Assembly (NCBI RefSeq): GCF_000003815.2
Contig: NC_049995.1
Span: forward strand, 2,665,006 to 2,729,005
Reading direction: 5' to 3'
DNA: 64,000 bases
From: Branchiostoma floridae
Taxonomy: Eukaryota > Chordata > Leptocardii > Amphioxiformes > Branchiostomatidae
Positions 13,219-60,726 of this stretch are shown piece after piece. Positions within the stretch are counted from its first letter, which is position 1, and every line of letters begins with the position of its first letter. The translations under genes were made by a program, and so were the position numbers. Under the pieces are notes generated by a model, which had not been told where the DNA came from, made no database searches, and saw only the letters and a program-made list of their open reading frames with translations.

Positions 13219-13400
13219 TAGTCTCCAAACAGACCCTACGGTGCCTTAGAGATAGTATCAAAGCTGGCAATGGAGTATAGCCGGCCAAAGGGAGATAGCC
13301 GGCCATGGTAGTCAAACGGGCACCGGTGCCGGCTATACTTCTTTGCCAGCTTAACCTTTGATACTATCTCTAAGGCACCGTAGGGTCTGCTTGGAGACTA
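13219..13400. mobile_element. MITE with TAGTCTCCAA ends
   Basis: Long inverted ends: TAGTCTCCAAACAGACCC and onward, through TACGGTGCCTTAGAGATAG and TATCAAAGCTGGC, mirrored at 13343-13400. ACGGCAAG occurs at 13210-13217 and 13401-13408 as an 8-bp target duplication. Same family as 12238-12582 and 29127-29265. Confidence 0.85.
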
Positions 13401-16723: not shown

Positions 16724-16809
16724 GATTTTATCGCGAATAAAACACAGACGAAGAAACTTTGTCATGGGCTGATTGTGATTACAACGTTAACAGTCTTCGT
16801 CATTTGACC

Positions 16810-17443: not shown

Positions 17444-20269
17444 TTACAATGCAGTCTCCATTTGCATGGCCTCTGGAGGAAGCAATGTACGCCTCAGTTG
17501 CAGCAGTCTCTTTTCCATCCCTTCTGGAGTCGGTCTTGTAGCTGGAACGTCGCGCCAACACGCCCTCATCAGTCGGTACAGCTCCTCTGGACATCCCGGT
17601 GGCCTTTTCATTCGTATTCCTTGCCTCAAAATCCCCACCATCTGAAGAAAGCTCAACTGAGTCCTGCCATCGTAGCACGGATCTTTTCCCAGCGTGGCGA
17701 TCTCCCACAGCAGCACGCCGAAGGACCAGACGTCACTCTCACAGGTGTACTCGCCGGTCTCGATGGACTCCAGCGCCATCCACTTCAGCGGAAGGAGTTC
17801 GTCAACGCCTGGACGGTTGGCTCGTACATACTGAGTGGTGGTGTAGACATCTCTGGCTAGTCCGAAGTCAGCCAACTTGGCCAAGTCATCGGCTGTGATG
17901 AGGACGTTGCGAGCGGCCACGTCACGATGGGCGATTCTCAAGCGTTCCAGCTCTTGCAGAGCTCGTGCTATGTGCACTGCGTATCCAAGAAGATTTTCCA
18001 ATACGTATTCCTCATTCTTTGTACCCCGTAGGAAGCCTAAGAGGTCGCCTTTTGGGGCATACTCTAGAAGAATGTACTTCTCCGCAGACTTGGTGATAAG
18101 CCCCACGAGTCGAATGATGTTGGACTTGCGATCATTGCCATCTCGTTCTTGCATTTGGTGCACAGCTACCAGTATGGCCGCTTCTCTATAGAAGTCACGG
18201 TAGGACTGTGAGTCCTCCACGCGAACTGTCTTTGCAGCGACGTCGAGTTGTCTTTCAGGTGTGCGCAGCTGTGCCCTTCTGACTTGCCCAAACATTCCTT
18301 CCCCTATCAGGGGACCAGGAGTAAGATGGTGGATCTTCTTCTCCCATCGTCCCAGCCAGCCCGGCTGTAGGCTCTGTGCTAGATCTTGCTCCATTTTTCT
18401 CAGTTCAAAAAGGATCTTGTCTTCCTCCCGTGTGTTGGGGGCTGAGCAAGCTAAGATGCCCGTTTTGTAGAGTATTGCTGCCACTATGGCAACAAGTACG
18501 ACTAAGGAGCCCAGTGGGACCAGACTTTCGAGCAGCGGTTCATCTCTGCTTGTCTGTAACTGGTCACAGTTCCGTCCCGTCCATGGCGTCACACATGCGC
18601 AGCTGCCGTCCACGTTATCACATGTGGCGTTGTTCTTACAAGTACAGACCTGCTGACATCTCCGACCGAAACGACGGTTTGGGCATGTTTTTTGACAATC
18701 CATTCCGTACCAACCGTCAGTGCAGTTACACCTGCCGTCGCTAGGACTGCATGTGGCCTCGTTGTGGCAGTTGCAGTACTTTGCACAGTGTTTACCGTAT
18801 GTGCCGTGTGGACATTTTGTCTGACAGTTTGTTCCTGTCCATCCCGGCGGACAGACACAACCGGCCCAGCGGTCACAGTCGGCACCTTGCAAGCAATCGC
18901 ACACTTCATCACAACCGACACCTTTATAGTTCAGTGGGCAATGTACATCAACAGCAATTGTAGCATTTACACTGTGTCCCTTTTTGTCAAAAACCGTGCA
19001 GGTGTAATATCCACTGTCTGTTAGCTGTATGTTGGAGACAGTTACAGTCATGTTGTTTTCGTCATTACTTCGTTTTTCAGACCCATTTGGAAAGCGCAGA
19101 GATATGGTTTTGGCATCAAAGTTGTACACCCTGCAGTGAAAAGCCACATTGCTGGAAAGGAAGATATGCCGAGGGTCGCTAGGTGTCGTGGTAACCGAGA
19201 CGTCTTGTTGAGGGATGTCACAGGCCACGCCTGTCCAGCCGGGCGGACATTTGCAGGCACCGTTAAACCCGTGACAGCGGGCGCCGTTCTTACAGATACA
19301 GTTCTTATCACAGAGGAATCCGTATTTTCCAACAGGGCAGCCTACAGGACGTATTTCTATATCTACATATTCAACGCTCGCTATTTCTACGGTCCGGTCG
19401 TCAACGGTTGTCCTTAAAAGAATGCGTTGAGATGACGGAAGTTTGCAGGAATATAACTTCACTTCTTTCGCAGGAAAAACGGACGTAAACAACACGATAA
19501 AGTTGTGTTTCATGTCATCCACGACAGAGTTAGGAATAAACTGTCTTAGTTTCTGTATTCTCGATTTGTCCTCGCGTCCCAGATCTAGATTAAACAACTC
19601 ACCTACTAAAAATAAGGGCTGTTCAGGTCCCGCTCTACATGTCAGTTGACGCCTGCCGTTATACCATATATCTTTCAACGTTACGACATCATCAGCCCAA
19701 GTCGTGTAAAAAGCCATACGGGCAGTACAGTCGCTGTTGTTTGTGTTCGCGTTCCAAGGCGCGTCCAGGTGGTGAGAGTACTCAGGCCATGCCCATGTTT
19801 GCCTTGTGTACAAAACATCACCGTTTGCAGTCACCCCTTCCGCCTCATACGTCAAACTGAAGAGTGCGGATATAACGTTAGGGTTAATAGTGGTTTCACA
19901 CGATTCGTTATACACAGGAGGATAGCCCACAACGTCAGACAACTGCACCCCGACACTGGTGTTGTACAAGACCATACCAATGTTGAGCAGATATGCCGAC
20001 TGTACTGACCAGTCCAGAGGGTTGGCGACCACAATAGTGCAGTTCTTTGTCACATTGAAGCGGTGGTACGGATCCCCGTCTATTTCTGCACACGGAAGTT
20101 CCGCTTTTTCACCAGCGTGGTTCCTTGGTAGACTGAATATGGTATTTCCCACAGCGACGTTTTCGGGCACGGAGACCTGGAACGTATCTGTTATAGACAA
20201 TGTGATCCGAAGAGTTAATATCAGGTAACCAACCAGCATGACAAAATTCGTCTGTAGGTTCACCGCCAT
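17444..20269 (-). CDS. Intronless EGF/Ig receptor tyrosine kinase, copy 2
   Basis: Tandem paralogue of the gene at 13886-16723, same strand, repeat period about 3.5 kb, intronless, 941 residues. Approximate layout: signal peptide 1-26, unassigned region 27-305, EGF-like 311-352, Ig-like 356-442, laminin/EGF-like cysteine repeats 444-568, transmembrane 585-604, kinase 646-927. Catalytic elements are present: GEGMFGQV 656-663, Lys680, Glu696, HRDVAARN 781-788, DFG 801-803. The activation loop has DVYTTTQYVRANR with no tandem tyrosines. The kinase differs from copy 1 at only about 15 of 280 residues, while the N-terminal 300 residues are far more diverged. The ligand is unknown. Confidence 0.88.
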   Translation of the reverse strand: MAVNLQTNFVMLVGYLILTLRITLSITDTFQVSVPENVAVGNTIFSLPRNHAGEKAELPCAEIDGDPYHRFNVTKNCTIVVANPLDWSVQSAYLLNIGMVLYNTSVGVQLSDVVGYPPVYNESCETTINPNVISALFSLTYEAEGVTANGDVLYTRQTWAWPEYSHHLDAPWNANTNNSDCTARMAFYTTWADDVVTLKDIWYNGRRQLTCRAGPEQPLFLVGELFNLDLGREDKSRIQKLRQFIPNSVVDDMKHNFIVLFTSVFPAKEVKLYSCKLPSSQRILLRTTVDDRTVEIASVEYVDIEIRPVGCPVGKYGFLCDKNCICKNGARCHGFNGACKCPPGWTGVACDIPQQDVSVTTTPSDPRHIFLSSNVAFHCRVYNFDAKTISLRFPNGSEKRSNDENNMTVTVSNIQLTDSGYYTCTVFDKKGHSVNATIAVDVHCPLNYKGVGCDEVCDCLQGADCDRWAGCVCPPGWTGTNCQTKCPHGTYGKHCAKYCNCHNEATCSPSDGRCNCTDGWYGMDCQKTCPNRRFGRRCQQVCTCKNNATCDNVDGSCACVTPWTGRNCDQLQTSRDEPLLESLVPLGSLVVLVAIVAAILYKTGILACSAPNTREEDKILFELRKMEQDLAQSLQPGWLGRWEKKIHHLTPGPLIGEGMFGQVRRAQLRTPERQLDVAAKTVRVEDSQSYRDFYREAAILVAVHQMQERDGNDRKSNIIRLVGLITKSAEKYILLEYAPKGDLLGFLRGTKNEEYVLENLLGYAVHIARALQELERLRIAHRDVAARNVLITADDLAKLADFGLARDVYTTTQYVRANRPGVDELLPLKWMALESIETGEYTCESDVWSFGVLLWEIATLGKDPCYDGRTQLSFLQMVGILRQGIRMKRPPGCPEELYRLMRACWRDVPATRPTPEGMEKRLLQLRRTLLPPEAMQMETAL

Positions 20270-20509
20270 GATTTTATTGTGAATGAAACACAGACAAAGA
20301 AACCTTGTCGTAGGCCAACTGTGATTACAACCGTCTTCGTCCTTTGACCTTTAATTACATAGACCAAGGTGGTTTGAGCAACGCAACCGGTTTTTCCATT
20401 TTGCCTAAAGGACTGTTGAAGGTTGTTGACCTTAAGGGTTGTCCTAAAGGCATACATTTTGTTGCAAATTATTTCAATCAATATACAGTTAATTTATCAT
20501 AGATATAAA

Positions 20510-25377: not shown

Positions 25378-26103
25378 CACGCATACATGTNNNNNNNNNN
25401 NNNNNNNNNNNNNNNNNNNNNNNNNNNNNNNNNNNNNNNNNNNNNNNNNNNNNNNNNNNNNNNNNNNNNNNNNNNNNNNNNNNNNNNNNNCTACACCTAT
25501 TCATCTAAGTGTACACGTATTTCGTTTTTCAGACAAAATATAAACCTACAACAAACATCAATAGTATAGAAAGATACAAAACAAAGAATTCCATACAATC
25601 TAACAGAACATAATTTATTTCCGTACCCAGCTCGATCTGCCGCTGATGCGGAGGTCCTGGAGGACAACACCATCGCTGACCTCTCCGACCTGACCGACCA
25701 GATAAACAAGATCGGCCTGCTGTTGGCCAAGAACGACGATGATAAAGACGGCTCTGGTGACGACGATGCCGACTTTCTGCTCCACGAATCCGGAAAGCCA
25801 ATAAAACCCTCCAAGAAGCCAGGGAAAGGCTCCAAGAAATCGGGCAAGGGTTCTAAGAAGCCAGGTAAAGGTTCCAAGAAGAAGCCTGAGCCGGTGGAGA
25901 CCTCGTCCGACCGTTTCATATCAGCGGAGCAGCCAGAGCTGGGCCCGGAAGATCTGGAGGCCATTCCCCTGTCCCTGCGACGTTACATCCAGGCCCTGGA
26001 GGACCGTGAGCTGATGCGCAAGCGAGAGGAGCACGAGAAGGCTGCCGAAGCTACACATCTCCGCAGTCTGCTGCAACGCCTGACCAGCAAGCGGCAAAAC
26101 TAA
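24523..26103 (+). CDS. Small secreted lysine-rich protein of unknown family
   Basis: Two coding exons, 24523-24625 and 25631-26103, join in phase to give 191 residues. The start MKTVFLLATFLVATQARE is a clear signal peptide. Next come an acidic stretch (NDDDKDGSGDDDAD), a basic repeat block built from KPGKGSKK units (three to four copies), a linker, and a charged helical C-terminus (PLSLRRYIQALEDRELMRKR ... LLQRLTSKRQN). No cysteines, no transmembrane segment. Dibasic sites in and around the repeats would suit processing of a peptide precursor, but no glycine amidation signal ends a peptide and I recognise no known hormone. A matrix- or polyanion-binding protein is equally possible. The intron holds a 100-N gap (25391-25490) and a (CT)n(TA)n tract, so a further small exon cannot be excluded. 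Confidence 0.75.
25391..25490. other. Assembly gap (100 N)
   Basis: Exactly 100 N directly after a (CT)n(AT)n simple repeat at 25343-25380, which probably caused the break. It lies inside the intron of the secreted-protein gene. Confidence 0.95.
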
Positions 26104-29447: not shown

Positions 29448-31810
29448 ATGGCTGAAGTCATCACCATGGTAACAGAGCGTGTGAGCGAGTACCCCGCCCT
29501 ACCCACACGGCTACAACAGCACCTGGACCTCCAGAGGAGGGCGGGGCAGTTCTGTGACGTCACACTGTCCGTACAGGACGCCAAGTTCAACCTACACAGG
29601 TACAGTCGTTTTTCTACTGGTGACAAAGTCGTGATACAGCAAATATTGCTTTTCAATACATGCTACAACATGAACTGTTCTCCAGAATTGTTTTAATGTA
29701 AAATAAAACACTGCAAACCTCCTTTCCCCTTCTAATAGTTCTACCATGAAATAAGTCCTAGTAAAAGTAAAAATTACAGTATCCAGGTATGTAGTATAGA
29801 GATTAATGTATGTATTGTTGTTTATGCTGCCCAGATGTGTGCTGTCTGCTTTCTCCCCTCATCTGACGGGGATGCTGAACTCAGCTGGCCCACTAGAGGG
29901 CGCTGCTAACAATAGGTAAGCTGCAGCAATATTTCTGCATAATTATGTAGCTAGTTTTGGCACCAATATTTCTGCATATATGTAGCTAGTTTCGGCACCA
30001 GGATATTAAGTGTTAATGATGGCTGTCTGATGCAGGGCTGTCTTCTGACCCAAAAATTTGCTTGATGATGGGACAGAAAAAAATTTGAAATTCACTCTTT
30101 CCATGAAAATATCTGAAATTCATGACACAATATTGATTAAAATGTATCTTGCTTGGATTACAAATGACAGATTTAACAAAGCAAACATCAACATGGGCTC
30201 CCAGACAACAAGTGAGACAGAAAAAATGTTAAGCTAGCTGTAGGCAGCCCTGGTCTGATGTAGGTATCATAATTCAGATTATTATTAAATAAAAAAATAA
30301 GTTATTTTGTAAAAAAAAAAACTATTTTGAGAAGGATTCAGTATGATTCTAAGCACAAAATGTGACATAGCTTCCCAATTTCTTTTATTTTTTAAAAACA
30401 TTTTCCTTCCCATCTTCTAGTGGTACAGCCCAGGCAACCCAACTTGACCTTCCTGAGCTGACCAGAGAGGGAGTGACCCCTGTTGTGAACTTCATGTACA
30501 CGTCCAAACTTGTGCTGACCAGGGACAACATCTTTCCTGTGTCAGTGGCTGCCGGATACTTCCAGATCCGCGAGCTGATCCAAGAATGTCAGCAGTACTT
30601 TCAAGAGACGCAGCAAAGTCAAGGTCAAGGTCTCCAAGGTCATTTCTATCCAGGAGGGAGTAGCGTGCGTGCTTCTCCAGGAACAAGAGTACTGCCAGAG
30701 CAATTTCAAACTGTCTCGGGAACAAGGATGGTACCAGAGCAGCATCAAGCTACCTTGGGAACAAGAATGCCATCACTGCAACAGCATCACACTACCCCAG
30801 GATTGAGAGTGTCGCCAGAGCAGCATCAAGCTGCCCTGGGAACAAGAATGCTATCACAGCAGCATCATACTGCCCCGGGCACAAGAATGCCTTCAGAGCA
30901 ACACCACCACACTCTCCTGGGAACAAGAATGCCATCAGGGCGGCTTCAGACTACCCCGGGAACAAGAAGATCCTCTGGTAGCACAGAAGTGCTGTCTGTA
31001 GACTCTTCCCCAGGTTTACAGTCCCCCACTTCTACCTCACAGCAGGTGTACTCAGGGAGGAATGATCAGGAAACAGGGAAGAATGATCAACCAGGAGCAA
31101 CAGCAGGTCACGGATCAGAAGACACTCTAAACACTTCTGCCAATGATGAGACTGCAACAGACCCTGCAAACTTTCCTCCCGCAGACTTCAGGGTAGAAAG
31201 CAGTGATGAGTTTTCCGGTGAAAGTCACATTGAACATTCAAACATCAACTCAGAAGCAGTTGTTGTGAAGCAGGAACCTGCAGAAAGTTGGATGGACTTT
31301 CCAGAAGGCGCAGCGACTAACCAGCAAGAAATGGACAGTTATATGTGGAGGGGAGGGAACCATGTTTCAGACGATTCAGACAAGCCGTTTCAGTGCATGT
31401 TCTGTCCCAAGCGTCTGCGCTCAAAGTCGTTGTTGGCGATGCACATCAGACGACACACTGGGGAGCGCCCGCACGCTTGCCCGCTGTGCTTCACCAAGTT
31501 CCACGAAAAGTGGTCGCTAACGAAACACATGCGCGTGCACACCGGAGAGAAACCGTACAAATGCACGCAGTGTCCCGCCACTTTCGCAGACGCATCCAAT
31601 CGCAACAAGCACAGGAAACGGATGCACGGTGTGTATACACAAGGGTCAAACAGTTACGCTACAAACAGCACTCCGGAGAGAGAATTTGAAGGTTTTCCAG
31701 GACCTGTAAACCACATGGATCACGTTGGCATGCGAGCGAACCAATTGTTCAGTGTTCCTAACACAGAGGAAAGTACAGACTTAGACACACAACAGACTTG
31801 TGTAGAATGA
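29448..31810 (+). CDS. BTB/POZ domain C2H2 zinc-finger protein
   Basis: Coding exons 29448-29599, 29835-29915 and 30421-31810 join in phase to 540 residues. An acceptor (TTCATCAG) immediately precedes the ATG, so a non-coding first exon probably lies upstream. Residues about 20-130 are a BTB domain (HLDLQRRAGQFCDVTL, LHRCVLSAFSPHLTGML, VTPVVNFMYTSKL, AAGYFQIRELI). Residues about 155-263 are a low-complexity array of 16-18-residue units around PGTRMPSEQHH. An acidic linker follows, then three C2H2 fingers at about 401-480 (CMFCPKRLRS, CPLCFTKFHEKW, CTQCPATFADAS) with TGERP and TGEKP linkers. This is a nuclear DNA-binding transcriptional regulator of the ZBTB type; vertebrate orthologue not identified. 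Intron 2 carries a hAT-like MITE. Confidence 0.9.
30033..30252. mobile_element. CAGGGCTG hAT-type MITE
   Basis: Ends CAGGGCTG / CAGCCCTG, 220 bp, with an exact 8-bp target duplication GTCTGATG (30025-30032, 30253-30260). No transposase. It lies in intron 2 of the BTB zinc-finger gene. Confidence 0.9.
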
Positions 31811-36037: not shown

Positions 36038-39000
36038 TTATGAAATAGTAGCAGCACGGCCAACCGGCTGTATCTGGTTGTTCAGAAACCTAGCGTATGG
36101 GTCGCTACCCCTTCGTTCCAGATGTGGGTGTACGATTTCCAGCGTTCCCTGGCTACGGAGCTGTCGCTGAAACCTCCGCCTCTTCTTCTGCGCCTGCACA
36201 GCCTTGTACTTCTTGAAGAGTCGGTAGCCGCCATAGACGGGAAGAACGAACGTGCCGACTCCGACCAATAGGCTGCCAGCACCCACCGCTAGACCTGCCA
36301 GCACTGGAGCAGCCACAAGTTGTCCGCCTGTTTCAGGACAAACATAATACATAAGTTAGGGTAGGTGAATATGGGTGCCATCTTGCAGAATCAACTAGTA
36401 TTGCAAGGTCCCACCTCTAGAATGGTAGAAATCTCCAAGCAAACCGGTAGCATGACTGTTGAAACATGCCACAGCAGTTGAATCTGTTTCGAGGCTACTA
36501 CCACTGGAGCAGCAACCATTTGTCCACCTTTTTTCAAGGAACACGTACATGCTGTCTTACAAGAGTAAGCTCTACCTTAAGATAAGCAGAATTGTTCAAA
36601 AAGAAAACAGGTTAGGACAATCCGGCAGTCTTGGCTATCTAGACTGATGGTCTAGACTGTCCGGACAATCCGGACAGGCCAGATCGTCAAATGAGAACAT
36701 CAATTTTTTTTCTAAGAACCCTTGAACACTACAGTCTTACCGAGCACAGCTCCGCGGATCATCTTGCGCTGAACAGGCTTCTCCGCCTTGTACAGATATT
36801 TGCAGCCGAAGACGCTCAGCTTGGTGTAGTGGTTCCCCATGAAGCGAATGTCCCGGAAGCGGTCCCCGCAGCGGTAACAGAACTCCGTCTTACACCGCGT
36901 GCACGTCATGTGATCACACCCAGATGTCCTCTGGATGTAAATCTAGAAAAGAAATGTTTAAATTTGACGATCTGGCCTGTCCGGATTGTCCGGACAGTCT
37001 AGACCATCAGTCTAGATAGCCACAAATGGACATAAATAAAATAAAAATTGGTAAAAATTTGTAAAATCTTCATTGTTACAATTCACAAATTCTAAAGTGT
37101 CACCATCATTTCATTAGCAATGGCATAAATGAAGAAAAAATTTTGTACTTATTGATGTAGTTTCAACTTCTATATAATGCATTGTATGACTTCCCTAGGA
37201 GGTACTGTGCTATGCACTACAGTACATGTATTCTTTCATAATTTTTATACTCCAAAATTCTAAACTAGGATTGAATAAATTGTTAACATGTACATTGCCA
37301 AAACCCTTTTCAAACCTTTTGTATCTCAGATTTTCAAAACTACAGCAACCACTTCTACAGATGGCTTTATTTGCATGCTTTCCAAGATGGCAACGCCCAT
37401 ACACATCACGTAAACAGAACAGCTTGTTGGACATAACAGTTTTCTTTTACACAACCAGTTTTTCTCATCTGCTGACGTTTTGATGTCTGTCAGACATCTT
37501 CCAGAGCTTCGAAACATATGCAGGTGAGAAAAACCGGTTGTGTAAAAGAAAACTCTAACTTATGTCCTATGATCTACCAACCTGATGAAATTCTTTTTTT
37601 TTTTGGAGAACAATTTGTCATATTTCCTCACCTTACATTTGGGACATTTTTGTGCATTGACCTGCCCCTGACATTCCTCCTTGGCCCAAACCTTCAGCAG
37701 TTTGTCCCCCTTCTGGTACAGCCTGCAGTTCACCCCTTCGTGCCAGGGGGCGTGACAGGGGAAGCACCACACCATGCTGCACTCCTTACACACCACCTAA
37801 GGTTGCAATAAGAACAAAAAACATAAAACATACATTAAAATTGATATATTACATTTTTTTCTGGGCAACTTTTTGCAAATTTTTTTCATTTCTTCGCAAA
37901 TTTTGTGCCATGTAAATTCAACAACCCTATAATGCTAGTTTACCTTTATCCGTGGGGAAGCCTATATCCGTTGTATCTAAAAACAGGGCACACATTAGGT
38001 AAATCAAACACACAGTTTCATTACCATAGCCTGGACAATACATGTTTTTTCTGGGCAATTTTAGCCAATTTTAGTTTTTTCTTGGTAATTTTAGCCTCCA
38101 ATTTTTAGCCTCCTATTATAGCCTCCAATATACAAAGTTGCCCCTACCATAGCCTCCTCAGGTGACCAGTCCTTCTTGGAAACCAGGCGCTTGTCGACAG
38201 TCATGGGTTCACTGCAGCGTGGACAAGTTTTAACATGGGGCTCTCCTAAACATGGCAGAAAACAAAATTGAATTATCATTAATTTTATATGTCTAACATA
38301 ATTAAGAAGAATTAGATTAGTACATGACTCACATGCAGTTGAATTTGACGCTATTTTCCTTGGAGTGAGTTAAAGGGCACTCCAGGCACGTGCATTAGGA
38401 GTTTATGACAAAATCAGTACGTTTTTTTTTATAGGCATTTGTTTAATGACATTAAAACAACAAACTGATACTTACTGTTTGCTTCCACTAGATACCGTTG
38501 AAACTTCAGTCGAGCATCGTCGTCCAGCCTGAAGGTGATTTCCTCCCGTGAAACGGTGCTCTGACACTCGCTGCTACAGCAGTACAGCTTCACAATAGCC
38601 TGGAGGACCTGAGTGAAGGCAGCAGAAAAACAGAAATTAGTAAATAATTTTTGTGACATATATAGTAAACAGTACCAAATCTTGCCTATAACGTTAGTTC
38701 ACCATTATCCGCGGGGTAACCTATATCTGTTGTGCTACTAAACAGGGTATCTAGGGATATCAAGTCGATGGACGGTAGTTTCAAATTGTACTATTTTCAA
38801 AATATTGGAGTTTGAAACCATTTCTGTCGACTTGATATCTCTAAATACATTGTTCTTACAAAGAACGGATAAAGGTTACCCTACGGATAAAGGTGAACTA
38901 TCGTTAGCTAATACTGCTATATTATGAGAGTAACACAAAAGAGTCTGACCCATATCTACATGCATAAAAATTAACATCAGACATAAGGAATTGTCTGGGG

Positions 39001-42000
39001 AAAATGAAATATTTCTAAAAGTAATTAAGCCATGACGCATGTACACAATTACATTTTTACGGAGGCAACTCAGACTAATAAATCGATGACGTATGATGAC
39101 TCATTCTACTGGTCTTCAGAATTTGATTAAATGTTTTATCGATTTGATTGTTTCGTCAGAGGGCTTGGTGTCTAGTGAGTCACTAATTACTAAGGCACGA
39201 TCTACACACAGTTTTTCCCGATATCGGCGAGAGGTTGTCGCAACCTCTTGCCGACAGCTTTTTTTCATCGTCTAGATGGAACTACTATATCGCCATTACG
39301 ATATCGGGAAAATTTCTCCCGAAAGGTCCGGACCATTCGTACGATACCTTACTGATAGCTTAGCAGGGGTCCCCAACAGCTTTGCGCGCGTGTAGATGCT
39401 TCCCAACTTCGGGAAGGCTCATTAGCATATAACGCCATTTGGAAAATCGCGCTATATGTTTATGACTGCAAGCGCCATGGGTGTCTGGCCCCCTACGTTC
39501 TAGATCCCTCCCGACATCTCCACAGATATCGGTAAAAACTGTGTGTAAATTGGGCCTAAGTAAAATAAGACATGCCCATAAGGCATGTGAGGATCTAATT
39601 CTATAATTACATTGTCAGAATAGTGATATTTTTTATGATTCAATGCAACCAATTTTACTTCTCTTTTTCAGAATTCTATTCAGGCAATTTTGTTATCAAG
39701 AATAATGATAAATTGATTTTTCATGCATTTTTGACACAATAGCATCATGTGGCATAAACCCTTAGTGTTACCAAAGGCAGTCATATGGTATTTTACATTT
39801 TGTGAATCTCGTGACTACTATATGAGCTCTTCCTTGCTCTTCCCTAAACACTTCTTTTTAAATGACAATTGAGACATACTGTATATCTGCTTTGACAAAA
39901 GCTTGTACTCCCTTCAGTAACCACATGTAGCCTTTGTTTCTGCTCTCTTTGTTGTTCTAAAGAGTCACAAGACCTATATTTATTCTCTACTGGTCCACTC
40001 ATGTGAGAACAGACAAAGGAACCCAAATTTAGATCTTCATGATATGAAACTCAGACGAAACAGGAACTTAAAGTTAAAAGACAAATGATATCCGAATTTC
40101 AAAAAAATTCTGTCTAAAACTTTAAATGGGCCACTATTGTGCTAGCCTGGTATCCAGACGTATCAAACCTACTGTCAGTCCTGACACTTTCATGTCCTCT
40201 CTACAAATTTGCATAGAGGACAGAAGAGACTCAGGGGCTATAATACGTCTGGATGCCAGGCTATCGTTGTGTTGTTTTCTGAACAGCTTAGCAGGAAATG
40301 GGTTTCAAAGAGTTTTTTTTTCTAAATCAGGTTCGTAGGGCCTGATGTTACCATCATGGTGATGAAGAGCGGCCCATAGCGATAACTGTAGCAGCATCTC
40401 TTCTCCCTAAGTCAGAAACATCAAGCTTAAGCAAGCTTGACTTCACTGACTCAACAGGCGAAGCAGGGGTTACGAGGCTGCTCGGGAAATTCCCTACCCC
40501 ATTTTGGCCGGAATGGTTTGATCCGCTCACATCGCACCATCGCACATGTGGCGGGTTGTTTTACGTGCCCGGGGTGTGGCTCTCCCCAAACACGGGACCT
40601 CCACTTAACGTCCTATCCGAGGGACGACTCATTTTCACTTGAGTAAAGTGAGGAAAGTCGTGTAAAGTGCCTTTCCCAAGAGCACAAGACCAGCAACACG
40701 GCAGGCGGATTCAAACCGGCGACCTCTCGGTCACGGGCCGAATACACTACCACTGTGCTACGCGGCCCCACTTAGTTTATGTTTTTGTTATTGAGTCGTC
40801 TGGAATCCATGTTCAGAAGGGACAATAAACCATCCTATATGGGATCGAGCCTCAGCCCTTAAATTTTGGCGTGCTAAAGAACCCAACACACTTATTGGGT
40901 CACCAAGTATTCTCAGCTTAAAAAAACACATTGCAAAGCCTGACATTACTTAAAAAAATCCTCATGACTGGTTTACCTTAGAATTCATTTAATTCTGTGA
41001 AGACTTTTTGGAATTTGGTGGTAGAAAGGGAAAAGAGGTTGGTGCAGTGTTTTAATATATTGGCATAGTAGTACATGATAGTATTCATAAACTTGAGAGA
41101 CACATATTCATAAACTTGATCCATGAAAAAATGGCGAGGCAAAAATTGAACCACTACAAATGTTTCAAGACTTACGGTACTTTATATATTAGAGGGTCTG
41201 CATGCTCTTTTACGTAAGGCGTAGGCAGCCTATTTTATTTTTCGTAATTCGTAGGGAAAACCATCTTATCTACGTAAATCGTAGCGAGGCGACGAAATTT
41301 AGCGTAATTGCCTTCCTTGATTTAGCGTAATACGTAGGGGGTTCTCCTGAATTCAGCGTAAATCGTTGTCAGGACGCCCCATGCTGACCCTCATATTACT
41401 CTGGTTTATATCCCAGAAACAATGGTTGTGCAGTGTTTTGATAGTCATGGGTATTGCATTGGGAGACACATATCCATGAAAAAATGGTAAGGCAAAAAAT
41501 AAAAAGACAACGCAAAAAATGCAAAATCAGTAATATTTTAAGTCTGTATTGCATTCACTAGGCCTGTTCTATATCCCAGAAACAATAAATCCTGTGGACC
41601 ACCCAAATAAACATTCCCAAGGGACCCACTGTAACAGGTGGCTGTATCAGCAACATGGTTAACATCTCAAAACACTTCATTAGGGGCCATCTAATTGATT
41701 GCATTGTTTACAAACATTGGGAGGAATTGCCTTATCAGAAAGAATCCTTCACAATTAGTGACTGATTTTAATTATCTAACGCTAGTTGACCTTTATCTGT
41801 TGGGTAACCTATATCCGTTGTTTTTCAAAACAGGTTATTTTAGGCACATCAAGTCGATGGGAGGTAGTTTTAAACGGCAATATCCTGAAAATATTGCAAA
41901 TTGAAACTAGTGTCCATCGTGTGATATATTTCTCCAAATATGTGTAATATCTCCAAAACAATGCATTACGAAATTGACACAAGTGTTTCATGAATGGATT

Positions 42001-44218
42001 CAAAAATATGCATCTATAAAGTTCATTTGGAAAAGGTATGAGGTCGTGGAACTCTAGTATTTAGGGTATAGTGTAATATCATTTGAATGTTAACATTGCT
42101 GATGTGGCCTGTGTGACATACAGTCAGTGTGACAGTGAGTCATCACTTATCGGGTCACTGCATTTTGTTTACGCTCTGGCCAGGTGGAGACAATACACTA
42201 AGTACATACTGGGGACAAACCATTGTCTCTTTAGGGGTGGTTTTCAAAAGAATAAGTCCTTTTTTCAAGTAGCATTTCTTGAAATATATTTTCTGACCTT
42301 TATACAGTTGTACAAAACTTTAAAAGGCAATTTGGAGCTTTTTCTGTACACTCCCCCTCTGTTGTTGATGGTTTGCCCTAGAACCACATTGCTTGGAGGT
42401 CAGTCTGCATGTACCATATTTGTTTTAGGGGTCATCTTTAGGTGTAAGAGAAACAAACTAAAGAAAAGTTAAGAACTCCTCATGAAATCACAATATCAAG
42501 GTATCAAACTAAAAGAATTTTTGCATCAGAAATGGAATTCATAGAGGAATTAAATGAAGCAAAGAATTTTGAGCGTGACTAAATAACAATTATGACAATG
42601 TTTTTTACCTATTTAGACTGCAAAAATCTATATTCCTAATGTATTAAATACAAAGAATATTAATAGTGTGTTGTTGACAGATTGCATTATATCCAATGAT
42701 AGAAGCACTTGTTCTATGCCGCCCTCTATGCCCCACTTTGCCTGAAAACTAAGGTGTGTCCCACCTCAATGTCATGACCTCAATTGTCTGAAATGCCACT
42801 GTACTTAAGTCAGCTGTCACGAAAAGTAAACTATACATAAACCCTACTCTCCAAGCAGAGGTTAAGCTCCGGCTGTTTTACGTGTTTTATGGTCGTTTTT
42901 ATCTGGCTTTCTATTTTGTCATTTTTCTTGAAGTACGCCAGCCAAACTGGTTATGTTAGGTTTTGACACAGCAAGATAAAATGAAAAACAGAAAGCCCGA
43001 TAAAAACGACTAAAAAAAACGTTTAAAAAAAAAAACAGCCGGAGCCTAACCTCTGCTTGGAGAGTACATAAACCCCACAAGCTTCTGACTCAAGAAAAGC
43101 AGAACTGTTCCAAACAATAGCTGCATTGAAGGAAAAAGGAACTAGCCAACTTTCCACATTAGTAGAACATAAAACTGTATTAAAACCATTAGAGATGCAA
43201 TTTGTGAATTCAATCTTTGTTTGTCTAAGAGTAAAACTGTAATTTGCAAAATGACCAATGAATGCCATGTATTTGAGTTTATTTAGCTGATGCACCTGCT
43301 ACCTGTTGCCTTTATACTATGGACCCCATAACATATTTATTAGGGTACGGACAAAATATAAGTACAGTAGAAGCCAGCACATAAAAATAGGCTTCCACTG
43401 TATTATGATTAGTAAAAGGTGAAGAGACATATGCACACACACACACACAACAAACAAACAAATGTAAGACTGCGAAATACCTGTGTTGTAAAGTACTGTT
43501 TCAAGCAGGCATCACAGACGGGGAAGTTACAGCAAGGCCGGCGGTGGAGGGCCTGCGTTTCGAGGCACACGCCGCACTCGGTCACGGTGAACTCACCGAC
43601 GAGGGACGCAGAGAGCCTCGGGGACGACTCCGTTTCGTCCCGATCCAACTCGATGAAGAACTCGGGGTCGTCCACGATCTCTGCGAACTGTTGTATCTGC
43701 TCTTCGTCCAGTTCTTCTTCTAAAGTCTCGTTCGAGGCCGTTTCGTCGGGATCGAGCATCGAGTTAGCCTCGGAGTTCGGCCCGTTGCGAGTCCTCCGTC
43801 TCCGGAGTAAGTTTTCCAGCAGAAGTCTGTGTTCGGGTGTTAGTCGGATTTTCCCGTCCCTTGCAGGTCTGCCTACCGAGGTCTCTGGTAGTAGTAGATC
43901 GTCGTCGGCGAAAAGGTCGAGTCTTCCCCATGCGATGCCGTCGTCGTCAAGCGAGTCGCTCGAGCCGGATTTTGGTACGCACCGGACAATGGTACACCCT
44001 CCATCGGCAAGGTCGGCCACTGAAGCCCGCCTGGCTTCCTTGAGTGTACCCGACGAGCATTCAGTATTCTTGGTCGTAATAACGTTACCTAACTCCATGT
44101 CGAATAGATCGACAGCGATTGCGAAAATGAAATCCTCATCATCGTCGTCGTTCCCGTTTTGTTGTTGTCCTTCTGACGTGTGGGTTTCCCCTTGCCCAGC
44201 AAGAGATGAATCAGCCAT
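36038..44218 (-). CDS. RNF217: RNF217-like RBR E3 ubiquitin ligase (6 exons)
   Basis: Exons in gene order: 44218-43481, 38608-38476, 38245-38148, 37796-37632, 36942-36741 and 36327-36038. Phases join and encode 541 residues. After an acidic N-terminal region, RING1 starts at residue about 215 (CGVCLETQALHRRPCCNFPVC), an IBR follows (TCPRCSEPM ... VVCKECSMVWCFPCHAPWHEG) and then RING2 (CPKC/KIYIQRTSGCDHMTC ... FCYRCGDRF). Cys387 in TSGCDHMTC aligns with the catalytic cysteine of RBR ligases, which forms a thioester with ubiquitin before transfer. Near the C-terminus is a hydrophobic segment (APVLAGLAVGAGSLLVGVG), a membrane anchor as in vertebrate RNF217. Exon 5, which holds the catalytic cysteine, lies between perfect 60-bp inverted repeats. 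The 4.9-kb first intron is full of transposons. Confidence 0.92.
36500..36545 (-). pseudogene. Decayed copy of the RNF217 exon 6 acceptor
   Basis: On the minus strand, an AG acceptor followed by GTGGACAAATGGTTGCTGCT and CCAGTG resembles the true exon 6 start (GCGGACAACTTGTGGCTGCT and CCAGTG), and the preceding intron bases (TGTTCCTTGAAA against TGTCCTGAAA) match as well. It is 174-218 bases upstream of the real acceptor in gene orientation. Confidence 0.6.
36633..36692 (+). repeat. 60-bp perfect inverted repeat, left arm (RNF217 intron 5)
   Basis: Exact reverse complement of 36962-37021 over 60 bases. It ends 48 bases from the exon 5 donor boundary. The sequence holds inner palindromes (TCTAGACTGATGGTCTAGA, CTGTCCGGACAATCCGGACA). 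Confidence 0.95.
36962..37021 (-). repeat. 60-bp perfect inverted repeat, right arm (RNF217 intron 4)
   Basis: Exact reverse complement of 36633-36692. It begins only 19 bases upstream of exon 5, so the likely branch-point region falls inside the stem while the pyrimidine tract lies in the loop. Confidence 0.95.
37439..37554. mobile_element. Short MITE in RNF217 intron 4
   Basis: Ends AGTTTTCTTTTACACAACC / GGTTGTGTAAAAGAAAACT with further pairing (GTTTTTCTCA / TGAGAAAAAC). 116 bp, non-coding. Confidence 0.8.
37933..38010. mobile_element. Partial AACGNTAGTTYACCTTTATC element
   Basis: Carries GCTAGTTTACCTTTATCCG, then AGCCTATATCCGTTGT and AAACAGGG, matching the left half of the elements at 38689 and 41780. 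The right end is missing. Confidence 0.6.
38689..38912. mobile_element. MITE with AACGTTAGTTCACC ends
   Basis: Left end AACGTTAGTTCACCATTATC, then GGGTAACC; right end GGTTACCCTACGGATAAAGG, then TGAACTATCGTT. The interior has AACAGGGTAT and CAAGTCGATGGACGGTAGTT, shared with 41780-41930. First RNF217 intron. Confidence 0.75.
39194..39556. mobile_element. Harbinger-like MITE, TAA target site
   Basis: Left end GGCACGATCTACACACAG followed by TTTTT, right end the inverse of GGCCCAATTTACACACAG. TAA lies on both sides (39191-39193, 39557-39559). G-starting ends with a 3-bp TWA-type duplication fit PIF/Harbinger; the interior repeats CGATATCGG several times. Confidence 0.7.
40143..40263. mobile_element. 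Uninterrupted TAGCCTGG-type MITE
   Basis: Ends TAGCCTGGTATCCAGACGTA / ACGTCTGGATGCCAGGCTA. 121 bp. In reverse it aligns with 29104-29326 minus the nested element there, through TATAGCCCCTGAGTCTCTTC. Confidence 0.85.
40505..40770 (-). mobile_element. tRNA-derived SINE
   Basis: On the minus strand it begins GGGGCCGCGTAGCACAGTGG (A box) with GGTTTGAATCC (B box) about 40 bases later. A central block TTGGGAAAGGCACTTTACAC follows, then a tail shared with 6745-6880. The structure is that of a tRNA-derived SINE with a conserved central domain; the family name is not assigned. Confidence 0.75.
41192..41392. mobile_element. MITE with internal CGTAA-CGTAG repeats
   Basis: Ends GAGGGTCTGCATG / CATGCTGACCCTC, flanked by ATATTA on both sides (41186-41191, 41393-41398). 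The interior carries five or six degenerate repeats of the form GCGTAANNCGTAGGG, each about 30-40 bases apart. Confidence 0.75.
41780..41930. mobile_element. Half copy of the AACGNTAGTT element
   Basis: AACGCTAGTTGACCTTTATC, GGGTAACCTATATCCGTTGT and ATCAAGTCGATGGGAGGTAG match the left half of 38689-38912. The right end is not preserved. Confidence 0.65.
42845..43066. mobile_element. MITE with TACTCTCCAAGCAGAGG ends, 9-bp TSD
   Basis: Left end TACTCTCCAAGCAGAGGTTA, right end the inverse, with imperfect pairing extending about 80 bases. An exact 9-bp duplication CATAAACCC lies at 42836-42844 and 43067-43075. Its interior is unlike the 12238 and 13219 elements although the terminal core is the same. 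Confidence 0.9.
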
Positions 44219-46280: not shown

Positions 46281-46787
46281 ATTCTCCACTTACACACTTC
46301 CCATAATTAAGTGCGAGAGGGTTCCGGATATAGCTGCTCCGAACTCCGGAACTGACTCCAAGGGCACAGAAAATTGGTTCTAACCAATTCCGAACACAGA
46401 AAACATCAAGGGGATGATAGTTTGGTGTGGAACCGATCACAGGACAATGGTTTAATCACTTTCCGACAGGAAAAAAACAAAGGCTGCAGACGAAACGCCA
46501 AGGTGTGGCCCATGAGGTCATCGGAAGAAACCAACTAACAGCCACAGTGGTGCACGTGTTAGGTAGTTACTTCTGACCACAAAACTTGTAAGATTCTCGG
46601 CCCAAATGATAACTGTACTATATTCGCCAGACAACTTATTAGTTTATATGCTTTTCCGCCCTCGTACTGAAGGTTTTAGCTGGTTCCACCCTGGTTTCGC
46701 ACCCTGAGCAACTGTGGTAGCATCCAAGTAACATCCATATCCGGAACCCTCTCGCACTTAATTATGGGAAGTGTGTAAGTGGAGAAT
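46281..46787. repeat. Perfect 51-bp inverted repeats around 405 bases
   Basis: 46281-46331 and 46737-46787 are exact reverse complements, starting ATTCTCCACTTACACACTTC. They lie 70 bases beyond the stop codon of the CRAL-TRIO gene, in its presumed 3' UTR. No target duplication is seen, so a MITE is possible but unproven. Confidence 0.9.
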
Positions 46788-55700: not shown

Positions 55701-55749
55701 AGTTGTGCTAGCATAGGGTACAAACCTTAAACCCATTTTATACCAGTAC
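49729..55749. other. Six-kilobase gene-poor region
   Basis: No gene was recognised on either strand; the open frames are short, AT-rich and lack family motifs. It contains a single left end of the CTCCAAGCAGA family (52380-52394), a full member (52923-53094), a TAGTC simple repeat (51617-51636), a poly-C run (52626-52648) and a motif ACAAGCGTGACGCAAGTGCAG at 54130 that also occurs, slightly changed, at 7957. Confidence 0.5.
52923..53094. mobile_element. MITE with CCAAGCAGAGGTT ends
   Basis: Left end has ATCCAAGCAGAGGTTGGGTC, right end the inverse of TTCTCCAAGCAGAGGTTGAG. GCTCACTC and GCTCACCC (7 of 8) flank it at 52915-52922 and 53095-53102. The interior has an inverted GGTCAGGACT-like core. 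Confidence 0.7.
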
Positions 55750-56352
55750 ACTCTTTGGTATAATAAAGGGATAAGACCCCCGCTATCCCATTTTTTTGCC
55801 ATAGGTACTTCTTGAAACACTCTTTGATCTAATAAAGGGATAAGACCCCCGCTATCCCATTTTTTTGCCAATATGTACTTCTTGAAATACTCTTTGGTAT
55901 AATAAAGGGATAAGACCCCCGCTATCCCATTTTTTTGCCAATAGGTACTTCTTGAAACACTCTTTGGTATAATAAAGGGATAAGACCCCGCTATCCCATT
56001 TTTTTGCCAATATGTACTTCTTGAAATACTCTTTGGTATAATAAAGGGATAAGACCCCCGCTATCCCATTTTTTTGCCAATATGTACTTCTTGAAATACT
56101 CTTTAGTATAATAAAAGGGATAAGACCCCCCGCTACCCCATTTTTGCCAATAGGAACTTCTTAAAAAACTCTTGGGATAACAAAAGGAAAAAACCCCCGC
56201 TATCCCATTTTTTTGCCAATAGGTACTTCTTGAAACACTCTTTGGTATAATAAAGGGATAAGACCCCCGTTATCCCATTTTTTGCCAATAGGTACCTCTT
56301 GAAAAAATCTTTGGTATAATAAAGGGATAAGACCCCCGCTATCCCATTTTTT
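55750..56352. repeat. 70-bp minisatellite array
   Basis: Nine copies of a 69-70-bp unit containing ACTCTTTGGTATAATAAAGG, then GATAAGACCCCCGCTATCCC and TTTTTTTGCCAATAGGTAC, beginning at 55750, 55819, 55889, 55959, 56028, 56098, 56168, 56237 and 56307. The array runs into the gap at 56353, so its true length is unknown. A one-base length alternation (69/70) shifts any reading frame between units. No spacers of unique sequence exist, so it is not a CRISPR array. Confidence 0.95.
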
Positions 56353-56452
56353 NNNNNNNNNNNNNNNNNNNNNNNNNNNNNNNNNNNNNNNNNNNNNNNN
56401 NNNNNNNNNNNNNNNNNNNNNNNNNNNNNNNNNNNNNNNNNNNNNNNNNNNN
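56353..56452. other. Assembly gap (100 N) inside the minisatellite/TLR end
   Basis: Exactly 100 N between the minisatellite and the TIR-coding sequence. The 3' end of the receptor gene, including its stop codon, is missing here. Confidence 0.95.
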
Positions 56453-59179
56453 TCTCCATTTGAGAACCGTGACCTCATTCATCACATAGCGCACTTGATG
56501 ATTGTTCACTTCAGATGCTGAAATGTCCTCCAGAAGAACGATGATGGGAAAGGGAAGCTGACCTCCACTATCAGCATGCTTATACATGTATCTATTGAGC
56601 TCATCCTTACACCAGTTACTCTGTAGAAAGTTCTCGCTGACAACGCAAATGATTCGTAAGCTTCCTTGCTGAGCATTTTCAATGTTTTCATGGATATTCA
56701 CACCCCCTACAAAGTCTCTTTCATGGTCGATCAGTCGATAGTCTTCCTCTAATTTACTATCTTTTATCAGCTTATTTACCCACCACCTATCTTTGTTGCT
56801 ATACATTACGAATGCATCGTGTGTTTTTGTAGTCAGGTCAAATATTTTGATATCTTGGGGTCCTCTCGATTTCAACCGCTTCCATGAGACGTATACAGCT
56901 ATAATGACGACGAGGATTGCTACTGAGAGCATTATAGCCAATAGGGTGCTAGATTTGTGAGTACAGTCTATGTTAAAGAATGTCCCTCTGGTTGAAACCC
57001 TTTCCCTGTCATTCTGATGCTTTTGTGACAACCCTTCCTTTATTTGACGACCATGCAAGTAACTAGGTACAGCACATTGGTAGCTTTGCGAAGGATACGG
57101 GTTGTTCCAGTCCAACACAGTGTCATAAATGTCCAGGGCCCACTCAACAAACCACAGTAGGGTACAATCACAAAGAAACGGATTGCCTGAGATGTCAATG
57201 CTCTCCAACTGCTCTAGAACAGGGCTGACGGTGGTTTGATCTAGCACAGCTAACGCGTTGCTTTTCAAACTCAGTATCCTCAACAAATGCAAATCGTCAA
57301 AGGCGTTACCGATGTCGACAATTTCGTTACCTGCTAGGTTTAGCTCTGTCAAGTTACCTAAACCGTCAAACGTCAGTGTCGATATCTGTTGTATGTTGTT
57401 GTTACTGAGGTCTAGGAATTCTAGATCTGGCAACCAACGAAAGGCTGACGGTGCAATGGTGGCAATTTTATTGTTGCTGATATCAAGTTTGGTCAATTTG
57501 TTTACCCATCGAAATGTACCTTTCTCGATAACTTGGAGCTTGTTATGAGAAAGTGTGAGTGTTTGGAGTGTGACAAGTCCTTCCATAAACTTTCCGTCTA
57601 TCGCCTTCAGTGCATTATTATCGAGCTTGAGCGTTTCTAAAGTTGAAGTTCCAGCAGGTGAGGCGACAATCAATGATTGGATGTGATTGTGCGATACGTC
57701 TAGGTAGGTTACATGAGGGATGAACAGGACAGAATTGTAGATGTAAGAACCGATATTGTTGTGCTGCACCTCGAGCGCATCTAAACGCTCAGGTAGTCCC
57801 ACTGTCGGTACATGAGTAAGCCTATTAAAGCTTAGATTCAGACGACTCAGATTTTCAAAAGACGAGAAGTCAAACGAAGCATCATACTCAACACCTTGGC
57901 GCGAACTCTCTAACTGGTTATAACTCAGGTCAAGGTGAGTTAGAGAAACAAGACCTTCGAATACACCTCCTGGTAAAATCGAGATATCATTCGACCCCAG
58001 GTCAAGGTCGGCAAGTGACGTCATTCCAGTGAACGAATGGTTTTGTAGGGTTTGCAAAGAACCCCCTCCCAAATTGAGTTTTCTTAAATGTACGAATCCT
58101 TCAAATGCATACGCGTGTATTGCCTTACAGCCTCGTGTATCTATAGTAATCGCTTCCAAATCCAACAGACCTTTCAATGCATCTAGAGTATTGGCCTTTA
58201 TGGCGTCTTCTCCCAAACCAAACGCAAGCTCATGTATCCGTGTGTTGTTTAGTTCGGGCAGTACTCTAACAAGATTAGAGAATGAGTCCAAGGTAGCGTC
58301 CCTGAGTTCCAATGTCTGTAGGTGACTTAGCGAATGCAGTAGGCCGGGCTCTATGTGATACATCGTGTAACTGGCAAGACTTAAGTGTTTTAGAGTTGAT
58401 GTGAGAGATCTAAACATTTCAACAGTAAGGTTAAGACGACTTGTTCCAAAATGCGACAGTTGAAGCGACTCTAGTCTGGAAAAATTTTGGAATGCAGACC
58501 CGAAATGAAAAATATTGTCATCTCCAAAAATGAGGACCAGTGTTTTGAGTTTGTGAAGTGGTGCCCACAAGAGTCCTCTTTGAAAGAAGTTATTCGCCCT
58601 GTCGTAATGTATTGTTAGATTTTCTAGTGATGCCAAAGGATAAAAACTCTGGTCCGGAAGATTGGATGCATCCACTAAACGGAGATGCAAATACTTCAGT
58701 TTAGCTAATCCACCAAAAATATGTTCACCAAACGTGTGTGCGGACATTTCCAGTACCAGATACTTCAGACTGGCGAGGTTTCCGAAAAGATTATTTTCCA
58801 GATGTGTAGTGTCTGTGCTGAAAGCTATATCTAGCCATGTCAAATTCTTTAACGCTTCGAAAGCGCCTTTCTGTATTGTCCGAATCCTTGTTTGTGACAG
58901 ATCTAAATGTTTCAGATTCGTTAGTCCTTCAAAAGAATCGTTGTAAAGTCTGGTGATGTTGTTTCCTGTTAGAGTCAGTTCGGTTACAGACTTCGGGATG
59001 CCGGGTGGTACTTGGTTTAGAGGTTGGTGGATTTTGTCCCAGGTATACGTACAGTCGACAGTTGTTGAATTCCATATCTGACACAGGGGCGTAGATTCTC
59101 CTTCAACAGGTTCAAGATGAGTTGTTATGAACAAACTCACCACAATGCAGACACCGAAAGCAACGCTCGTAGACTCCAT
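56453..59179 (-). CDS. Toll-like receptor, single exon, C-terminus lost in a gap
   Basis: Uninterrupted frame of 909 visible residues from the ATG at 59179 (MESTSVAFGVCIVVSLF, a signal peptide); an in-frame ATG at 59227 would add 16 residues before it and is less likely. An N-terminal cysteine cap (CQIWNSTTVDC) is followed by over twenty leucine-rich repeats (LTGNNITRLYNDSFEGLTNL and similar), one C-terminal cap (FLCDCTLLWFVEWA), a transmembrane helix (AILVVIIAVYVSW) and a TIR domain (HDAFVMYSNKDRWWV, RDFVGGVNIHENI, SENFLQSNWCKDEL). A single cysteine cap before the membrane makes it the vertebrate-type architecture. It should sense microbial or damage ligands and signal through TIR adaptors. 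The last 25 or so residues, with the FW box, fall in the gap. Confidence 0.92.
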
Positions 59180-60726
59180 GTTGACGTGTCGATGTTTTAC
59201 GTTATGAAGAAGACCCCTCACCTCCACACTGTTGTGATAATCAAAATATGTGAAATCAGTGAGTAATCAATGTCTTTGTAAACAGAAAGTCACAGCGATT
59301 ATAAGTTACAGATGAAAGAAGAGTTGGAATCAATTTCTAGTCCATTGTTCCAACTTACACCAAAAAGTAGTTACTCAGGCAACTGGATATGGTTTTGGAA
59401 ACGGTCAGACGTTTGAACTGCTATCCGCAGTTTTCGTCAGTGACACTGAAGTGGTCTGGAAGAAACAGGTCTTTTATACTCTAACTATGAATGAGGACAA
59501 TTTCAATAAGAAACACTTAGCTCCTGTAACCAATACAACAGGAGCTAATTGACTCATTTGCATTAACTTTGTCTTAGCTTTGTTTCCCATTGACATCCAA
59601 AATTGTCTACCCTTGCCTTAGTTGTAGTCTGGCTACTGGGCAATAGGTGCTAGTATATCGCATTGTTTGATAGGTCAAATGAATATCTGAATCAGTTTTG
59701 GACCCAAATCATGTTTACTGTAGGTGTATGGATTCACTGCCTTTCACCAGTTTTAGTTTTTGGCAACTTAGATTTTAAATTCATATCCACAAATTTGACG
59801 ACAGTAGGCAGGGCTATGACGTCACTGGTAGTGGGGCGGGGGCAACCGTTACTTGTATTGTGTTAGTAACATGCCCTGTTTTGTGCTTTTCTTGCTACAA
59901 TTATACGGCTTCCCTTTGGGACAGCAAAGTACACGTATGTTGCTAATAAGCACGTGCAGGTAAAAGGTAAAGGTCCTGGTATACATGTTCAAATATTGAT
60001 TTATATCGCCTGCTCATGAGCTGCATCTGTCAGTTTGTATAACAATGTACGGCCGTGTTTTGTTTATGTCTAAGGGTTATGTCACATGCACTGTGATGCA
60101 CAGTTAGCAAGAACACCATTATACATTGCAATGGTACCCCAACAGCTATCAGTAGCTATAGTAACGTTGTTACATATCCAAAAAGTCACCCAATACCAAA
60201 GATTACATTTTGCATGACAAACCAAACGCGCAGAAATCAAAACGTTTATTAGCCTGTCTCACAGCAATGGAAATACACCATTTGACAAACTACACGTATC
60301 AACCAACTGCAATCGATTATGATAGTATGTCACCTGGTCAGAGACTGTGACAGGACAGAGTTAACGTTGTATGAGCTTGTGTACAACTGATTAGTGTATG
60401 TATACAGGCAGAAGTACAGTAGATTTGTTCATATACGAATGTGTTCCGATATTGTAACATTTTCACGGGATTTGTACTGTTTCGCCTTCTTCTTTCCGAA
60501 CAAGAAGAAAGACAATATCCCAAAAGCATACTTTCTAAGCTAAATAAGTATTCAGACAGATTCAAATGCTGTGGTTTCACAAAATTGAATTCGAAGGTCA
60601 AATAAGCTGAAATAATATCAAAATATCAGAATGGGTTCAAATATAGAAGTTTCGTAAATGCATTCGAAGTCAGCACAACTATTAAGATCACTCTTAAGCT
60701 TGTTGTTACACTTCGTGAATGAACCG
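59180..60726. other. TLR promoter side and spacer
   Basis: Contains one copy of the CAACTGGATATG repeat (59375-59460) close to the receptor start. A CRE-like TGACGTCA occurs at 59818-59825 beside a G-rich stretch. No gene recognised. Confidence 0.5.
59375..59460 (+). repeat. CAACTGGATATG repeat, copy 2
   Basis: GGCAACTGGATATGGTTTTG, AAACGGTCAGACGTTT, then CGTCAGTGACACTGAAGTGG and TCTGG. Matches 60998-61082 along its length and 6905-6975 in part. Upstream of the TLR gene. Confidence 0.75.

Follow-up and report, generated by a model that had tools for sequence, protein, structure and literature searches.

The window analysed here, a 64,000-nucleotide stretch of the Branchiostoma floridae genome, contains on its minus strand a gene with six predicted coding exons (36038-44218), all with GT/AG borders. 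The coding exons 1 to 6, at 44218-43481, 38608-38476, 38245-38148, 37796-37632, 36942-36741 and 36327-36038, join into a single open frame of 541 aa. Above their cut-offs, Pfam searches of this product returned IBR (two stretches) and IBR_1; the first RING was not matched by any model, and a hydrophobic C-terminal segment is visible in the translation. Exon 5 (36741-36942, minus strand, 202 nt) has AG and GT at its flanks, is entered in phase 0 and is supported by the IBR models; it encodes IYIQRTSGCDHMTC, which aligns with ARIH1 at the cysteine of IYIQRTSG-C-DHMTC. Counted from the exon lengths, the aligned cysteine of RING2 is residue 387, and its counterpart in ARIH1 is taken by us to be the catalytic one. 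The IBR matches, the RING2 with a cysteine aligned to ARIH1 and the C-terminal hydrophobic segment suggest that the gene encodes an RNF217-like RBR E3 ligase; the name is that of the vertebrate protein. Vertebrate RNF217 is described, in passages of one report, as a ligase for ferroportin (PMC8295296). When the exon 5 peptide was searched against the genome, one match was obtained at E values up to 0.001 (10 candidates scored).

The introns of this gene contain several further features. In intron 5, the beginning of exon 6 and its acceptor are partly duplicated in decayed form (36495-36547, minus strand); 27 of the 32 positions in the core of the duplicate (36502-36533) are identical, a score unmatched in 1000 shuffles. 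Intron 4 carries an inverted repeat of 46 nt and 87% identity near exon 4 (37438-37554). A tRNA-like match in intron 1 (40696-40767, minus strand), with 33.2 bits against a threshold of 29, is perhaps a tRNA-derived SINE; it was not called by ARAGORN, which reported no tRNA in the window. Elsewhere, two long uninterrupted ORFs of 966 and 968 aa (13886-16786 and 17444-20350, minus strand) stand in tandem, both with Ig and tyrosine-kinase domains, and are identical to each other over stretches as long as 117 bp. Another uninterrupted, single-exon ORF (56339-59266, minus strand) contains leucine-rich repeats and a TIR domain of the Toll-like receptor type, and adjoins a 70-bp tandem array (55748-56352) and an N gap. 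The segment 31806-32015 (plus strand) looks by eye like a further copy of the C-terminal tail of the BTB/zinc-finger ORF next to it (30371-31810).

Exon 5 is bracketed by an exact inverted repeat. The left arm (36632-36692, plus strand) lies in intron 5 and is the downstream arm in the minus-strand pre-mRNA; the right arm (36962-37022, minus strand), its reverse complement, lies at the end of intron 4 and is the upstream arm. The two are free of mismatches over 61 bp and are separated by 269 nt. The original prediction had described identical arms of 60 bp, of which the identity stands and the length is corrected to 61 bp. Its description of the 269 enclosed bases as holding the 202-nt exon with RING2 Cys387 agrees with the measured spacer, the splice sites and frame and the ARIH1 alignment, and 19 nt do separate the upstream arm from the exon, as it had stated; the downstream arm is 48 nt away on the other side.

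In 64 kb of uniform random sequence, the expected number of exact inverted repeats of 61 bp within 1 kb is approximately 1.2e-29, and the arms are therefore not a product of chance. Ten exact repeats of at least 20 bp in the window pass the filter used; the exon 5 arms are the longest, and one of only two of at least 40 bp, the other being a 51-bp pair at 46281-46787. Under the same filter, a sample of 20 stretches of 10 kb (200 kb with 29,668 N, from 18 contigs of 18.5 to 35.3 Mb) contained no exact inverted repeat of at least 40 bp within 1 kb, one of at least 30 bp and seven of at least 20 bp. When a repeat of 61+269+61 bp was placed at random in the gene, 480 of the 7791 possible placements (6.2%) enclosed a whole exon and kept the arms free of exon sequence; relative to the 5284 placements with exon-free arms, the share is 9.1%. 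The bracketing of exon 5 is thus a 6-9% coincidence in this gene. The identity of the arms bounds their divergence only loosely, as the probability of finding no difference over 61 bp is 0.54 at 1% divergence and 0.08 at 4%.

Each arm is itself partly self-complementary. In the left arm, the hairpin scan, self-alignment and predicted fold agree on two abutting hairpins (36638-36677, plus strand), one with a 7-bp stem and 5-nt loop (36638-36656) and one with a 9-bp stem and 3-nt loop (36657-36677), both stems being perfect; the hairpin scan found the same two mirrored in the right arm (36977-37016, minus strand). Tandem hairpins of this kind occur in the window at the two arms only, and one was found in total across 10 shuffled windows. 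Single hairpins of at least 9 bp number 5 in the window, within the range of 0-8 seen in 10 shuffles, and so show no enrichment; the longest stem from the scan is a perfect 20-bp hairpin with a 2-nt loop at 8433-8474. Alternatively, the arm can be folded as one quasi-palindrome of 45 nt, which in the left arm spans 36645-36689. The self-palindromy score of the arm was reached by none of 1000 shuffles and by 6 of 1587 61-mers from the window, a count from which the arms' own 61-mers are not excluded. Just outside the left arm, and there only, the hairpin core recurs in part in direct orientation at 36615-36628 (plus strand), with 11 exact nt, a 1-nt deletion and 3 more nt. The 11-mer has three matches in the window, two of them elsewhere, and the fragment may be due to chance.

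Searches of the whole 513-Mb genome (513,431,437 bases in 431 contigs) with the 61-bp arm returned, at E values up to 10, two matches, which are the two arms; match counts of this search are lower bounds, very common words being skipped. With up to 3 mismatches allowed, a 22-mer containing the first hairpin matched the two arms alone, 2.6 matches being expected by chance. A 21-mer containing the second hairpin, with up to 2 mismatches, matched the arms and two places on other contigs, each with 2 mismatches, where 0.46 matches are expected in random sequence; these two places are absent from the results of the 61-bp search. As a positive control, a 61-bp query from the end of the 46281-46787 repeat, a MITE with 51-bp perfect arms (I6), gave at least 40 scored matches from 60 candidates, with 39 lying outside the window, so that a family comparable to it would have been detected for the arm. 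The ends of nine repeats were also compared with the 20 sampled stretches. The end of I14, a MITE-like element in intron 1 of the RNF217-like gene (42845-43066), was found in 5 of 20, that of I10 in 3 and those of I5 and I15 in one each. The exon 5 arm was found in none, as were the ends of I4, I6, I9 (a MITE-like element at 13219-13400) and I11; since I6 is dispersed, this test is weak by itself. As far as these searches reach, the arms are unique to this locus in the assembly. Scans of the arm against viral contigs and prokaryote genome contigs, and of the MITE end against viral contigs, gave no match, as expected. Over 36300-37400, Rfam returned only three sub-threshold matches, one of them on an arm (mir-1420, 23.2 bits against 70). 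Full-text literature searches yielded no recognisable paper on the exon 5 inverted-repeat locus and none on the MITE end.

Target-site duplications were sought around the pair as a whole, where the best was 3 bp, and around the single arms, where the best were 4 and 5 bp; all are at the level of random pairs. Among 12 inverted repeats tested, a clear duplication was present in I9 (8 bp) and I14 (9-10 bp) only, the ends of which look alike by eye, and the other nine pairs had 4 bp or less. The proven MITE I6 had 3 bp, which makes the absence of a duplication at the exon 5 arms weak evidence; it is their uniqueness that carries the argument.

In RNA, the arms are predicted to form the long duplex that the original prediction had envisaged as looping out exon 5. 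The arm-arm duplex has a calculated energy of -127 kcal/mol, against -26 to -28 kcal/mol for each arm alone, and in a 651-nt context the mean pair probability across the 61 bp is 0.994. Beyond the perfect arms, base-pair probabilities predict that the intron 5 stretch 36696-36714 pairs with the polypyrimidine-tract side of the exon 5 acceptor at 36944-36958. The probability of being unpaired is 0.28 for the polypyrimidine tract, against 0.76 when the downstream arm is shuffled (mean of 12), and 0.08 against 0.31 for the branch-point zone. The acceptor AG becomes slightly more open with the duplex (0.16 against 0.07 without), and the 5' splice site hardly changes (0.41 against 0.35) and is not closed by it. 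The claim that the upstream arm covers the branch point is borne out in that the arm spans the usual branch-point zone, and the final 90 nt of intron 4 contain a single yUnAy, which lies within the arm at -65; at least one yUnAy between -25 and -39 is present in every other intron of the gene (1, 2, 3 and 5). Minimum-energy folds computed at eight successive 3' ends, as static structures rather than as a kinetic simulation, keep the upstream arm folded on itself until the downstream arm emerges and then pair the two, and the local folds of the arms (-26 to -28 kcal/mol) could delay the duplex.

If these predictions hold in the nascent pre-mRNA, the arms would pair across exon 5, mask the branch-point zone and partly occlude the polypyrimidine tract, probably leading to some skipping of exon 5 and perhaps to small amounts of a 202-nt circular RNA. 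On the modelled folds, partial skipping or circular RNA is plausible. The exon lengths and the joined translation demonstrate that skipping shifts the frame, as had been claimed. A skipped mRNA would encode a protein of 390 aa ending in CPKCKADNLWLLQCWQV, lacking the catalytic cysteine and the C-terminal segment. Its stop codon falls in exon 6, the last exon, so that by the usual rule nonsense-mediated decay would not be expected.

The repeat is best read as an inverted duplication, unique in the assembly and probably recent, that arose by local reverse-complement copying through template switching; we consider this reading probable, with confidence somewhat better than even. In replication or repair, a polymerase would have used about 61 bp of one intron as template and placed the reverse complement in the adjacent intron, some 330 bp away, with the hairpin-forming, self-complementary sequence of the arm assisting the switch, and later template switching may have maintained the identity of the arms. 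The core fragment, found beside the left arm and not beside the right, hints at the left side as the source. The mechanism is one that we infer from the form of the repeat, in which a reverse-complement copy lies close by and is found at the exon 5 locus only. In passages of the studies cited, template switching creates perfect inverted repeats, homogenises their arms, can invert spacers and acts on self-complementary sequence (PMC8604942, PMC8794818, PMC7954356). The original prediction had offered recent origin, gene conversion or selection as the meaning of the perfect identity. Zero differences over 61 bp are compatible with a recent origin, and the failure to find other genomic copies speaks for an origin by local mutation; selection is distinctly unlikely.

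The duplication could instead be older than its arms suggest and have been held identical by repeated homogenisation through template switching or gene conversion, which we regard as fairly unlikely. Arm homogenisation of this kind is documented in passages of PMC8604942, and BLAST detects a gapped resemblance that continues past the perfect arms toward the acceptor, for 90% identity over 83 bp in all. If these inner flanks are homologous, the duplication is older and 61 bp of it were homogenised. The anchored score of the inner flanks was reached in only 24 of 1500 real windows, but 126 of 1000 dinucleotide shuffles attain it, both flanks being T-rich; the local alignment score was reached by 131 of 2000 shuffles and 16 of 2544 windows.

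A functional splicing switch, in which selection keeps the stem and regulates inclusion of the catalytic exon, turning the ligase off or producing a circular RNA of the active-site exon, is distinctly unlikely as the reason for the repeat. It would be consistent with the predicted duplex across the branch zone and polypyrimidine tract, with the truncated 390-aa product whose stop lies in the last exon, and with the circular RNA reported, in the passages cited, from human RNF217 (hsa_circ_0077765, PMC6966810). That circle spans approximately 31.6 kb of the genome in the same source and is no evidence for an exon 5 circle here. Against selection, the identity of the arms is equally well explained by youth (probabilities of 0.54 and 0.08 at 1% and 4% divergence, as given above), and enclosure of an exon is a 6% coincidence, or 9% if the arms must avoid exons. 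Passages of PMC5814467 put the complementarity that may suffice for circularisation at over 30-40 nt, and the size of circle-forming exons at 200-300 nt; the two flanking introns of exon 5 exceed this complementarity (61 bp, perfect), and the 202 nt of the exon are at the lower edge of the size range. In the portions cited of two other papers, inverted repeats at the flanks are only a modest predictor of circularisation, with about 100 nt of complementary sequence spoken of (PMC12093144), which exceeds the 61 bp of the exon 5 arms, and inverted repeats are not sufficient (PMC4479058). The splicing mechanism of the original prediction is possible, and the sequence can be explained without it.

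On another reading, a small mobile hairpin element, similar to mitochondrial double-hairpin elements, inserted twice, once on each side of the exon. This fits the anatomy of the arms, with two abutting hairpins in a quasi-palindromic whole, and the core fragment adjoining the left arm. It is nevertheless quite improbable, as no further copy was found in the genome, a uniqueness that goes far toward refuting it, and neither arm has a convincing target-site duplication (4 and 5 bp, at random level). An assembly or sequencing artefact, such as a fold-back chimera, has to be considered with one assembly at hand and 100-N gaps elsewhere in the window. The nearest gaps, at 25391 and 56353, are not close to the locus, exon 5 and both its splice sites are intact and in order, and a chimera would be expected to drag flanking sequence along with the arm, making an artefact very improbable. 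It is barely credible that the arms are terminal inverted repeats bounding a single transposon which captured exon 5 or inserted around it: several elements with such termini are present in the window, but exon 5 belongs to the gene itself, reads in frame and encodes a peptide that has one genome match, and this reading is rejected mainly on copy number (2 matches against 40 scored for I6), with the missing target-site duplication as weak support.

A recent template-switch duplication may still be segregating. Heterozygosity in amphioxus is given as 3.2-4.2% in passages of PMC12500494, and set against this value the loose bound on arm divergence means that the duplication may postdate the mean divergence of two alleles, and hence be polymorphic. 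If so, alleles with and without the repeat in one animal would provide a direct test of whether pairing leads to skipping or circular RNA. Because no other copy of the arm was found in the genome, there is no repeat family to confound such a comparison, and the locus is a clean natural case for measuring the effect of a perfect stem across an exon on splicing. Template switching or recombination between the perfect arms might also invert the 269-bp spacer, and the catalytic exon would then occur in both orientations in the population as a reversible, heritable on/off polymorphism, although this is highly improbable. Spacer inversion is documented in yeast, where the changes described in passages of PMC8604942 are of 2-5 bp.

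Several known systems resemble the exon 5 repeat in part. The B. floridae MITEs and MITE-like elements of the window (46281-46787, 42845-43066 and 13219-13400) likewise have inverted repeats a few hundred bp apart, but they have dispersed ends (46281 and 42845) or target-site duplications (42845 and 13219), and the exon 5 pair has neither. Mitochondrial double-hairpin, or repetitive hairpin-forming, elements share the unit of two adjacent short hairpins (passages of PMC2800124), whereas the exon 5 arms lie in a nuclear-type gene, in two copies only and without dispersal. In the amphioxus VCBP2/5 genes, haplotype-specific inverted repeats are reported between exons in the passages cited (PMC2632668); these are larger inserts of gene or element fragments, in contrast to the 61-bp pair at exon 5. 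Exons flanked by inverted Alu elements or short intronic repeats also have complementary arms in both introns, and the exon 5 arms exceed the 30-40 nt quoted (in part of PMC5814467), but these arms are a unique duplication belonging to no repeat family and lie very near the exon. A further likeness is to short template-switch mutations that create inverted repeats, described by the four-point model and in yeast (passages of PMC8604942 and PMC7954356), with which the locus shares a locus-specific, perfect and quasi-palindromic inverted repeat with no target-site duplication and no family. It differs from them in enclosing an exon and in the size of its arm (61 bp) and spacer (269 bp), which exceed what is typical in those passages: short template switches in great apes have a median of 12 nt and a maximum of 128 in the template-switch literature cited above, and the yeast study, as described in its cited passages, considered spacers up to 70 bp only (PMC8604942). 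A copy of 61 bp at approximately 330 bp is at or beyond the long end of the template switches so described, and the inverted repeat around exon 5 is a mutation of a known kind.
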